From: Bacteroidales bacterium
Lineage (GTDB): Bacteria > Bacteroidota > Bacteroidia > Bacteroidales > B18-G4
DNA: 13,652 nucleotides
Assembly (NCBI GenBank): GCA_023132505.1
Contig: JAGLYE010000018.1
Coordinates: 1-13,652, forward strand
Reading direction: 5' to 3'
How positions within the stretch are numbered: the stretch's first letter is position 1; the number at the start of each line of letters is the position of its first letter. Shown here piece after piece: positions 39 through 3,236 of the stretch. The notes under the pieces are model-generated. The model had not been told where the DNA came from and did not search any database. It saw only the letters and a list, made by a program, of their open reading frames with translations. The translations under genes and the position numbers were made by a program.

Positions 39-974
39 TCAAAGATCCTGAAGTTTATATGAGTAGCTTCCTTCCGGCACTTGAGAGGCCTGGTCCAGCA
101 TTTTGATGTATTGCCCGCAATTGCTGCCGATCTTATTTTCCTCCCACTCGCCAATGCTGAGGATTACTTCGTAACCCGCATTTTTGAGGGCGTCAACCAC
201 AGCATATTCTTTTTCCTCCCTCACAATCAGGGAATCGATATTATTCATGCGGGCCTTGAACGTAGGATTGACCGGGGTGATCTTAATAAGGAAAGTTTCG
301 GGATTGAAATGATTAAGCAAGGATTGTGGGTCAAGGATATTTTCCTTGCCAAGCGCAAAATTCAGGGTAAGCTTCTTCCCTCCTTCCGAATAAAAGCGTT
401 CTCCGAATAAAGCCATCTTTTCAAAACTCCATTTTTTTACCGGTACCAGCTTGTTGCGCTGTTCTTCATCCGTGCTGTGAAGCGAAAACTGCAGCTGGAA
501 TGATTGGTCGTAATATTCCTTTTTAATATTCAGAAGTTTTTCAAAAAAAGCATCCGTTCCATGCGGAGCTATTGTAGAAAGAGAGCCTACGAAATTATGG
601 ATAGGATATTTCGCAGGAAATTGCTCCAGAACATCCAGCACAGCATGGTTGAGCGATGGCTCACCCATACGTGCAAATTGTATCTTGAATTTGTCGGTTT
701 CAGGTATTCCCGAGGGAAAACGATAATTTACCAGGTAATCTATCTGAAAGAAGATTTCCTCTGCACTGAGCTTTCCTTTATAATCTCCGCCGGCATCGCA
801 AAATTTACAGTCGACCGGACAACCGAACAATGTAGAAATAATGATCACCCATTTCTTGCTTATGTCTATGGGTGGCTGTATGGATTCAACAAATTCGATG
901 CGCCTGCCATCACTATTCTCGGCAATAAAAACCGATGCAATCGTATTTTCCTGTGTTCTGCTAATTACCTTCAT
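39..974 (-). CDS. RlmN-like radical SAM protein lacking the RlmN N-terminal domain
   Basis: This 311-residue protein is a radical SAM enzyme, seen from CPVDCKFC (Cys52, Cys56, Cys59), the CxxxCxxC site for a 4Fe-4S cluster and S-adenosylmethionine. Further landmarks match the RlmN/Cfr methyltransferase group: MGEPSLN (103-109) resembles GMGEPLLN, FSLHSTDEEQRNKLVP (163-178) resembles the SLHAPNDELR block, TPVNP (233-237) resembles IPFNP, and NCGQY (285-289) resembles the ACGQL segment with the methyl-carrying Cys355 of E. coli RlmN. RlmN methylates A2503 of 23S rRNA and A37 of some tRNAs. This protein is 73 residues shorter, all at the N-terminus, and the RlmN resolving cysteine (Cys118) corresponds to Ile45. 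It has only four cysteines. The substrate is therefore uncertain; a nucleic acid target is an inference from similarity. Its ATG overlaps the preceding oxidoreductase stop codon by 4 nt (ATGA), which supports this start and translational coupling. It is the last gene of the leftward operon. Confidence 0.85.
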   Translation of the reverse strand: MKVISRTQENTIASVFIAENSDGRRIEFVESIQPPIDISKKWVIIISTLFGCPVDCKFCDAGGDYKGKLSAEEIFFQIDYLVNYRFPSGIPETDKFKIQFARMGEPSLNHAVLDVLEQFPAKYPIHNFVGSLSTIAPHGTDAFFEKLLNIKKEYYDQSFQLQFSLHSTDEEQRNKLVPVKKWSFEKMALFGERFYSEGGKKLTLNFALGKENILDPQSLLNHFNPETFLIKITPVNPTFKARMNNIDSLIVREEKEYAVVDALKNAGYEVILSIGEWEENKIGSNCGQYIKMLDQASQVPEGSYSYKLQDL

Positions 975-1765: not shown

Positions 1766-2414
1766 CGTTCAACAGATCTAAAAGTGTATTGGTTTTTACA
1801 GGACGGGAAAACAAATAAGCCAGGTTCAGAAAGGTGGCAAGATGAAATTCATAGTTGTATGCTGCTGTGGCATCCACAGGCATCACTACATCAAAACCTT
1901 TAACAAAAGCAGATCTTGCCGTACTTTCACAGCAGAGGTTAGTCATAAGGCCTGTGATGATAAGTTGTTTTACACCGGCATGGAGTAGTTGTTGCTCAAG
2001 ATCTGTTTCATAAAACGCATCAAACTGGCTCTTTTTCAATACTGTTCCACCCATTGCGGCGATATTTTCAGATATATCACTCCTGGGATCTTTTTCATTG
2101 ATCAGCTCATGCCAGCGAATACCCATCATACCGGCATTTTCTTTATTGTTAAGGTGCCTGGTAAGTATCACCGGCATCTTCATTGCTTTGCATGCCTGCA
2201 TTATCTTAAGCACGTTTGGAAGGATCACCGGGGAGGAAGGCACAAATGCATGCTCATCAGGGTCGAGGAAATAGTTTTGCATGTCAACTACCAGCAATGC
2301 CAGATGGCCAAAATCCGGTTTGAACATCCGCATACCGGAATAATACTTCACTTCTTCGATCATTTCTTCAGATTCAAGATCGATATTATCAGGGGTAAAG
2401 TACTTTTCTTTCAT
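1758..2414 (-). CDS. Isochorismatase-family cysteine hydrolase
   Basis: This 218-residue protein has the isochorismatase-like hydrolase fold. The catalytic Asp-Lys-Cys triad is visible: Asp44 in LVVDMQN, Lys128 in VLKKSQFDAF, and Cys161 in LMTNLCCESTAR. The GLMT turn before the cysteine corresponds to the conserved cis-peptide region. Family members hydrolyse isochorismate, nicotinamide, N-carbamoyl compounds, ureidoacrylate and related amides, and many remain uncharacterised; sequence alone does not decide the substrate. About 30 residues precede the first core strand, a short N-terminal extension rich in acidic residues. No signal peptide is seen, so it should be cytoplasmic. It is the first gene of the leftward operon, with a Bacteroidota-type promoter box 22 nt upstream of its ATG, and its 3' end overlaps the oxidoreductase start by 8 nt. 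Family assignment is secure; function is not. Confidence 0.88.
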   Translation of the reverse strand: MKEKYFTPDNIDLESEEMIEEVKYYSGMRMFKPDFGHLALLVVDMQNYFLDPDEHAFVPSSPVILPNVLKIMQACKAMKMPVILTRHLNNKENAGMMGIRWHELINEKDPRSDISENIAAMGGTVLKKSQFDAFYETDLEQQLLHAGVKQLIITGLMTNLCCESTARSAFVKGFDVVMPVDATAAYNYEFHLATFLNLAYLFSRPVKTNTLLDLLNDA

Positions 2415-2436
2415 TCGTTTGCTTCTGTGTTATATG

Positions 2437-2444
2437 CAAATGTA
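2437..2444 (-). promoter_or_regulatory. Probable -7 promoter box for the leftward operon
   Basis: On the minus strand this reads TACATTTG, a full match to the Bacteroidota -7 consensus TAnnTTTG. It sits 22 nt before the hydrolase ATG, giving a short leader. No TTG or TTTG is present at the expected -33 distance; the region there is simply A/T-rich. The call therefore rests on one element plus its position. Confidence 0.5.
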
Positions 2445-2497
2445 AGGTAAAAAATAAATGAAATTATATCTTTACGTTTCGAATCAGGAGTTTTTTG

Positions 2498-2607
2498 TAC
2501 CCTCCCCCAACCCCTCCCTGCCAGCAGGTAGGGTAGTAATGCTTGAATCACAATAATAGCAAGCGTTCTCCCTCCTTTTTCGAAGGGAGGGAGACAGGGG
2601 GTGTGTA
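2498..2607. repeat. Cloverleaf-forming inverted-repeat element, possibly a dispersed intergenic repeat
   Basis: This 110-bp block has C-rich runs on its left side and G-rich runs on its right, and it folds by hand into a four-way cloverleaf. The outer stem pairs 2498-2508 with 2597-2607 (two mismatches, including five C-G pairs in a row). Arm 1 is 2512-2533 (eight pairs around one mismatch, loop CCAG). Arm 2 pairs 2538-2545 with 2560-2567 (eight pairs, one wobble). Arm 3 pairs 2568-2578 with 2583-2593 (eleven pairs, one wobble, loop TTCG). Almost every base outside the loops is paired. The composition differs sharply from the A/T-rich spacer around it. It resembles the C-run/G-run intergenic repeats common in environmental Bacteroidota, which is recollection rather than a search result. 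It contains no gene; open frames across it are low-complexity and unsupported. Confidence 0.6.
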
Positions 2608-2631
2608 AAAGATTTTTTTTCAATAAATAAC

Positions 2632-2661
2632 TTGTATTTAAAAAAAGATTTTTTACCTTTG
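2632..2661 (+). promoter_or_regulatory. Primary promoter of the str-S10-spc operon
   Basis: TTG at 2632-2634 and TACCTTTG at 2654-2661 are separated by 19 nt. This exactly matches the Bacteroidota housekeeping sigma promoter pattern (-33 TTG, -7 TAnnTTTG). A/T-rich tracts lie within and just upstream of it, as expected for a strong ribosomal promoter. Transcription would begin a few bases after 2661, leaving a leader of roughly 190 nt before rpsL. No comparable promoter was seen further down the operon. Confidence 0.8.
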
Positions 2662-2726
2662 CAGCCGCTTTTGATGATTCGTCTGAAAGAGCAGAAAATC
2701 CAACGGAAACCTGACAAATTGAGGCA

Positions 2727-2781
2727 GATATAGGTTCCACCCCGATACACGGGACGCGTCTTCAAAGACCTACCCTATATC
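2727..2781 (+). promoter_or_regulatory. Structured segment of the rpsL leader (three-way junction candidate)
   Basis: GATATAGG (2727-2734) is perfectly complementary to CCTATATC (2774-2781) and can close a 55-nt domain. Inside it are two small hairpins: CCCG/CGGG (2741-2744 with 2750-2753, loop ATACA) and GTCT/AGAC (2758-2761 with 2766-2769, loop TCAA). The domain lies well downstream of the predicted transcription start and about 80 nt before the rpsL ATG, where autoregulatory ribosomal protein sites often occur. It is not one of the known r-protein leaders that I can recognise. The pairing is seen; regulation is inferred. Confidence 0.4.
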
Positions 2782-2861
2782 ATCTTCCCTTAGATTTTCG
2801 AAAAACATGAATGTTAAACATCTCTTTTTGAGGGGATTAAAAATAATTAATAAGTCTTAAT

Positions 2862-3236
2862 ATGCCAACAATACAACAATTAGTTCGCAAGGGACGAAAA
2901 AAATTAACTGACAAGAGCAAAGCACCTGCACTGGATTCATGTCCACAACGCAGGGGTGTTTGTGTAAGGGTTTATACCACAACCCCGAAAAAACCTAACT
3001 CAGCCATGAGGAAAGTGGCCAGGGTAAGGCTTACAAATGGAAAAGAAGTGAACGCCTACATCCCTGGTGAAGGCCATAACCTCCAGGAACACTCCATTGT
3101 AATGATCCGGGGTGGAAGGGTAAAAGATCTTCCCGGTGTACGTTATCACATCATAAGGGGTGCGCTTGACACTTCAGGTGTTGAAGGCCGGACACAGCGT
3201 CGGTCAAAATATGGTACAAAGAAACCTAAGAAATAA
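2862..3236 (+). CDS. rpsL: 30S ribosomal protein S12
   Basis: S12 sits at the decoding centre of the 30S subunit, where it helps monitor codon-anticodon pairing. The 124-residue product is full length and nearly invariant, with [11 protein letters not shown] at the N-terminus, [18 protein letters not shown] (40-57) and [13 protein letters not shown] (84-96). Lys43 and Lys88, the sites where substitutions commonly give streptomycin resistance, are both the wild-type residue. Asp89, which RimO methylthiolates in E. coli, is also present. This is the first gene of the operon. The start is preceded by an A/T-rich stretch rather than a close Shine-Dalgarno sequence; an AGGGG at 2831-2835 is too distant to act as one. 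Confidence 0.98.

Follow-up and report, generated by a model that had tools for sequence, protein, structure and literature searches.

In a 13,652-nucleotide (nt) stretch of a Bacteroidales bacterium genome (assembly GCA_023132505.1, contig JAGLYE010000018.1; the whole stretch is referred to here as the window), we analyzed an RlmN-like radical S-adenosylmethionine (SAM) enzyme encoded by the third gene of an overlapping cassette that also encodes a hydrolase and a flavoprotein. The enzyme keeps the methyl-carrier cysteine of RlmN and lacks the resolving cysteine. Judged by the alignments, this combination reflects function and is no peculiarity of a single protein, because the pairing is conserved family-wide and is common to the phage relatives. 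With roughly even confidence, we favor the reading that these enzymes form a clade beside RlmN and Cfr which would carry out cysteine-methylene radical chemistry on another substrate without the resolving cysteine.

Translation of the minus-strand coding sequence (974-39) gave a protein with only four cysteines, the CxxxCxxC triad Cys52/56/59 and Cys286, as stated in the preliminary description of this DNA. Alignment with hhalign placed Ile45 at the position of the RlmN resolving residue Cys118 and Cys286, in the CGQ loop, opposite the methyl-carrying Cys355, in line with that description, and the RlmN N-terminal domain was likewise found to be missing, the structural match of the 311-amino-acid (aa) protein beginning at RlmN residue 80. 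By structural comparison the enzyme has the RlmN fold with a single radical SAM domain, at 16-18% identity to RlmN in the structural alignments. RlmN itself (PDB 3rfa and 5hr7; TIGR00048), a dual-specificity 23S rRNA/tRNA adenine C2-methylase, has in common with it the fold, CxxxCxxC, MGEP, Glu27 and the CGQ carrier loop, whereas the N-terminal domain and Cys118 are present in RlmN only and the window enzyme stands in a cassette context. The two also differ at Arg102, Lys231 and Asn205 (Gly, Asn and Glu in RlmN). Cfr (23S rRNA adenine C8-methylase; PDB 9p0p) keeps its resolving cysteine, C105, according to PMC9692996, whereas the window enzyme does not. Against TIGR00048 the window enzyme scored 44 bits (curated cut-off 290), and against the Cfr profiles NF000424 and TIGR04432 it scored 44.7 and 41.2 bits (cut-offs 530 and 550), in each case below the cut-off. 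Class A radical SAM methylases have two conserved catalytic cysteines besides the triad (PMC9692996); in the window enzyme we found one, C286. Because it falls below the cut-offs and has neither the resolving cysteine nor the N-terminal domain, the enzyme is, on these comparisons, wrongly classified if called RlmN or Cfr; to the extent that sequence can tell, its mode of action follows RlmN-like principles.

A protein database search returned 5023 proteins at an expect value (E) ≤1e-3, of which the best 120 were listed and the remainder may include true RlmN. In genome contigs 423 relatives were confirmed and 80 were kept, with 51-80% identity; they come from Bacteroidota, Ignavibacteriota, Cloacimonadota, Chloroflexota, Latescibacterota, Krumholzibacteriota, Zixibacteria, Melainabacteria, KSB1, the archaeal Methanomicrobiaceae and Thermoplasmata, and other groups. 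The alignment used to assess conservation has 85 rows, some of them near-duplicates: the window protein, 77 of the 80 kept loci (L086, L111 and L112 were missed in open reading frame (ORF) picking) and seven loci from its own family. The cluster triad is kept throughout, and GSNCG with Cys286 occurs in all 83 rows that reach that far. Position 45 is Ile in 69 rows, Met in five, Val in four, Leu in three, and Thr and Cys in two each. The pairing suspected from the single sequence is thus a family property, with an invariant carrier cysteine (83/83) and a residue other than cysteine at position 45 in 83 of 85 rows. Homologs with Cys45, named in the preliminary description as evidence that would speak against it, do exist in the two remaining rows, which form one nested clade. 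No other cysteine can serve generally as a stand-in, as 27 of the 85 rows contain exactly four.

When viral contigs were initially scanned using the cellular family, no relative turned up; those in phages were identified in an annotated phage collection. Searching phage records by tblastn gave 21 hits, 20 of them listed at 26-36% identity and 80-125 bits. The sole PHROG hit of the window protein was phrog_24834, a family of unknown function (109.9 bits, E 2.6e-31, residues 35-304), compared with 44 bits for the RlmN model, PHROGs carrying no curated cut-off. The nine phage regions fetched hold three kinds of enzyme. One, here called phage A (L196, L199, L201 and later L282), has both catalytic cysteines and no N-terminal domain; the L196 gene sits among tRNA genes. 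Another, from Bacteroides phage Versailles (L194), has Thr at position 45 and a carrier-like cysteine in cis. The Versailles protein, with phrog_24834, resembles the window enzyme in the absence of Cys45, the Arg before MGEP, Lys231 and the cis carrier-like cysteine; it differs in being phage-borne, at 31.5% identity, with CGN in place of CGQ and a long branch, and no such hydrolase or flavoprotein is named among its fetched annotated neighbors. In the third kind (L195, L197, L198, L200 and L202) position 45 is Gly and the protein ends before the carrier loop, and at all five of these split loci a separate small downstream ORF encodes GY or GF, then E, then AACGQ.

The split enzymes, found in Moorella phage MTATph1, Kehishuvirus 'tikkala', Pectobacterium phage Wc4 and others, are like the window enzyme in having no Cys45 and in Arg102, Lys231, Asn205 and Gln162, and unlike it in that the core ends before the loop and the carrier-type cysteine lies on a separate small ORF. 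The cysteine of the L197 peptide is preceded by a Gly at a distance of 19 residues and a Glu at 7, the same spacing as for Gly267 and Glu279 in the window protein. At L198 and L200 an extra ORF lies between the core and peptide ORFs, and in Vibrio phage D479 (L202:4635-4916) the carrier motif occurs twice in tandem within one ORF. With the five split cores as queries, 98 relatives were obtained from viral contigs. Of these, 80 were kept, near-identical contigs included, and five of the 80 were dropped as the core pattern matched no ORF. Among the 75 recognized cores, 74 have Gly at position 45 and no cis carrier. A carrier peptide was found at 62 of these 74 split loci (61 downstream, one upstream, none on the minus strand), and no peptide was found within the flank examined at the other 12. 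Four of these misses (L260, L276, L279 and L280) share the same last 20 residues, and a further one, L209, shares its last 20 with L208, where the peptide is present. For the 61 downstream peptides, 50 of them distinct, the distance from the core stop to the start of the motif is 44-61 nt for 43 and 95-1935 nt for the other 18; length from the first Met is 38-54 aa in 56, and 42 contain a single cysteine. An alignment of 27 chosen peptides showed AACGQ in every one and ten invariant columns. A profile built on the peptides matched at least 2905 database proteins at E ≤0.01, among which C-terminal fragments of RlmN-like genes may be included; among the 120 matches listed, most are nameless at source and five are called RlmN by the Joint Genome Institute (JGI). 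The L195, L197 and L202 peptides had no PHROG hit at E ≤0.01 and no Pfam hit over cut-off.

Relationships were examined in a core-only tree of 45 chosen rows (12 RlmN, four phage A, 13 cassette and 14 split enzymes, the Versailles protein and the RlmN-like protein of locus L133). It separates RlmN, phage A and L133, which have Cys45, from the cassette, split and Versailles enzymes with support of 99/95, and the latter side holds one Cys45 exception, the derived cassette row L085. Since the tree is unrooted, its bootstrap is not fully settled and Versailles and L133 form long branches, 'a clade beside RlmN' is the furthest claim made here. The residue before MGEP is Arg in 85/85 cassette and 74/74 split rows and Gly in 20/20 RlmN. 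Lys231 occurs in all 85 cassette rows and, within the tree sample, in 14/14 split enzymes and the single Versailles protein, whereas RlmN has Asn at this position (12/12) and phage A has Thr (4/4). A missing resolving cysteine is hence accompanied by two basic residues, Arg102 and Lys231. Gln162 and Asn205 also differ from RlmN (205 is Glu in 12/12) and are no marks of the side without Cys45, because phage A and L133 have both. Glu27 is matched by Glu in every group and row of the tree sample.

Table 1. Coordinates of the features discussed, in the window and at phage loci.
Feature	Position	Strand	Basis
RlmN-like radical SAM enzyme, 311 aa, cassette gene 3	39..974	minus	fold and family searches
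CxxxCxxC cluster triad Cys52/56/59	798..821	minus	85/85 rows
Ile45, site of RlmN resolving Cys118	840..842	minus	hhalign and column counts
Arg102 in ARMGEP (RlmN: Gly)	669..671	minus	column counts
Lys231 in KITPVNPT (RlmN: Asn)	282..284	minus	column counts
Cys286 in IGSNCGQY, counterpart of methyl carrier Cys355	117..119	minus	hhalign; 83/83 rows
Flavin adenine dinucleotide (FAD)/NAD(P) oxidoreductase, thioredoxin-reductase-like without CxxC, 264 aa	971..1765	minus	profiles; fold of relative L041
Isochorismatase-like cysteine hydrolase, 218 aa	1758..2414	minus	PF00857 5e-36; conserved Asp44/Lys128/Cys161
Phage A enzymes, GGGCGQLW loop	L196:5881-6840, L199:4878-5822, L201:3884-4813		
Split core and peptide regions	L195:5833-6795, L197:5842-6764, L198:5821-7164, L200:5001-6459, L202:3836-4916; also viral loci L203-L281		

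Whether the genome also has a full-length RlmN had been raised as a check, and one is encoded on another contig of the host genome (351.8 bits, over the cut-off), which is 75.7% complete. Among the other carrier genomes 20 of 32 have an RlmN over the cut-off; the 12 without one, genomes of unstated completeness, include seven archaeal ones (L049, L053, L060, L061, L062, L096 and L110). Because the host and these 20 carriers have their own RlmN, the window enzyme, to judge from gene content, is no substitute for it. A Methanoculleus genome with the cassette also encodes a 278-aa RlmN-like protein (L133:1486-2322, minus strand) which has no N-terminal domain and keeps the resolving cysteine. The gene is present in seven of nine genomes of the window organism's own family. 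At E ≤1e-20, with the search genome included, it occurs patchily in its own phylum (5/296 genomes), in 23 of 80 genomes in the phylum of L074 and in 2 of 294 in the phylum of Methanogenium. No plasmid copies were found at E 1e-10, and neither the cassette nor a split RlmN was found described in a search of one open-access literature library.

The cassette runs in the order hydrolase, flavoprotein, RlmN-like enzyme in many bacterial phyla and some archaea; in the window the hydrolase gene overlaps the flavoprotein gene by 8 nt and the flavoprotein gene overlaps the radical SAM gene by 4 nt. The hydrolase matches PF00857 with 124.8 bits (cut-off 27) and conserves D44 (62/62), K128 (64/64) and C161 (64/64), which we take to be the catalytic set of isochorismatase-like cysteine hydrolases. 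The flavoprotein scores 120 bits against TIGR01292, below the cut-off of 343.45. Low-molecular-weight thioredoxin reductase has a redox CxxC, whereas no conserved cysteine pair was found in the flavoprotein over 75 rows or over 57 rows; a disulfide relay is therefore not expected, and its role would rather be ferredoxin/flavodoxin-reductase-like. At 264 aa, the window flavoprotein falls about 30 aa short of the ~295 aa of most relatives, and its alignment to the profile contains two in-frame gaps.

Beyond the cassette, 8 of 20 loci of one phylum (L074:695-4414, L170-L183) have an MttB-like gene upstream, and at some cassettes of the same phylum genes for homocysteine methyltransferase, methionine-synthase activation and corrinoid proteins are nearby. 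A link to methionine/corrinoid metabolism was considered and left out of the mechanism because PF06253 was found in only 8 of the 42 genomes tested, the window's own genome not among them. Of 123 same-strand neighboring genes, 67 were scanned; among the first 25 of the 77 families matched, PF06253 occurs in five genes and each of the others in at most two. To look for riboswitches and other control by RNA, the window and 14 loci were compared with Rfam at gathering thresholds, which returned one tRNA only, and seven sub-threshold hits in a permissive scan of window positions 2300-2900 were read as chance. Between the cassette and the first ribosomal-protein-like ORF (2411-2860) the window holds overlapping short minus-strand ORFs (2411-2740 and 2484-2765).

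In RlmN, one SAM methylates C355, the radical from a second SAM activates the methyl group and the methylene radical adds to adenine C2; release of the adduct requires C118, which may act as a base, and the reductant that restores the cysteinyl radical is still unidentified (PMC9692996). Whether the resolving cysteine of RlmN and Cfr acts as disulfide partner or general base has been debated (PMC9692996). The preliminary description had held that an enzyme of this kind should resolve its adduct otherwise, do other chemistry or act on another substrate. Another substrate or another resolution is favored here because of the separate RlmN, the missing N-terminal domain and the cassette context; the chemistry itself we infer. 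In the simplest reading the reaction opens as in RlmN: one SAM would methylate Cys286, a second would give the 5'-deoxyadenosyl radical that takes a hydrogen from methyl-Cys286, and the resulting S-CH2 radical would add to an unsaturated carbon in some substrate that is neither A2503 nor A37. This substrate is probably a small polar or anionic molecule held by Arg102 and Lys231, to judge from the accompanying hydrolase, the lack of an N-terminal domain and the altered polar residues. Proton removal, attributed to Cys118 in RlmN, may fall to another residue (Lys231 or Glu27) or may not be needed. The flavoprotein could supply electrons to the cluster, to the cysteinyl radical left after release, or to both, and the hydrolase would act before or after the radical step in the same small-molecule pathway.

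Several observations weigh against this reading. The hydrolase is absent at 8 of 67 loci, and 3 of 72 have no adjacent flavoprotein, the gene lying about 1.5 kb away in L070. Cysteine does occur at position 45 in two of 85 rows. Phage A enzymes with both cysteines (hits H3 and H4) score 106-107 bits, within the 80-125 bits of the other listed hits, so scores alone do not sort the kinds. The methionine-synthase/MttB link is local (8/20 loci in one phylum), and the unrooted tree would fit either an ancestral or a derived state without the cysteine. Kinship with RlmN and the phage relatives keep a nucleic acid open as the target, and Glu27, matched in every row, would fit a base-like substrate. 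The enzyme might accordingly be an RNA or DNA adenine C-methylase in which Glu27, Lys231 or Arg102 frees the Cys-CH2-adenine adduct and the partners are an electron supply and an unrelated hydrolase, which we consider somewhat unlikely. The RlmN fold and Glu27 in all groups agree with it, as do the tRNA genes in three of the nine phage regions (at least five in two, two in the third) and the JGI name '23S rRNA (adenine2503-C2)-methyltransferase' of many relatives, which looks automatic; it sits poorly with the absent N-terminal domain, the RlmN already present in the own genome and 20/32 other carriers, the co-conserved hydrolase, the 44 bits against a TIGR00048 cut-off of 290, and Asn at position 205 where 12/12 RlmN have Glu, though phage A and L133 have Asn too.

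Alternatively, the thioether adduct may be held, the substrate staying tethered to Cys286 by a methylene bridge while the flavoprotein and hydrolase act; on the phage side, split enzymes would then leave the small carrier peptide on the substrate. C118A RlmN traps exactly such an adduct (PMC9692996), the clade has no resolving cysteine, and in phages the carrier sits on a small peptide of its own, which has one cysteine in 42/61 and occurs in tandem once (L202). Against this, a cis carrier consumed in one reaction would, unless it were released, limit the cellular enzyme to a single turnover. We find the tethered adduct quite improbable. Very doubtful, in our view, is a role of Cys286 as hydrogen-atom donor or as a cluster- or SAM-handling residue in non-methylating radical SAM chemistry: the loop reads IGSNCGQY against IxAACGQL in RlmN and pocket residues are rebuilt, but Cys286 aligns with the carrier, CGQ is kept and the 27 aligned phage peptides all carry AACGQ. 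That the gene is a decayed RlmN copy without function, as the 16-18% identity to RlmN might suggest, has practically no chance of being right; it is contradicted by conservation, as proteins from different phyla are more than 50% identical, the motifs do not vary and the operon is kept.

Returning to cysteine-methylene radical chemistry on another substrate, a bolder extension, which we hold unlikely, would cover the whole clade without the resolving cysteine: the phage peptide of about 40 residues may stay on its target by a Cys-CH2 thioether, the cellular cassette being the in-cis version in which the partners finish or release the product. If true, this would be a radical SAM route by which peptides are coupled to nucleobases or small molecules. 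The split phage carrier peptide, if truly working as a carrier, would add a new type of architecture to the radical SAM superfamily. With its three genes the cassette gives a way into the search for a new substrate, and may include a dedicated electron donor such as has still to be found for RlmN; the clade without the resolving cysteine, with its Arg102 and Lys231 and its members in bacteria, archaea and phages, would provide a direct way to test the role of that cysteine.
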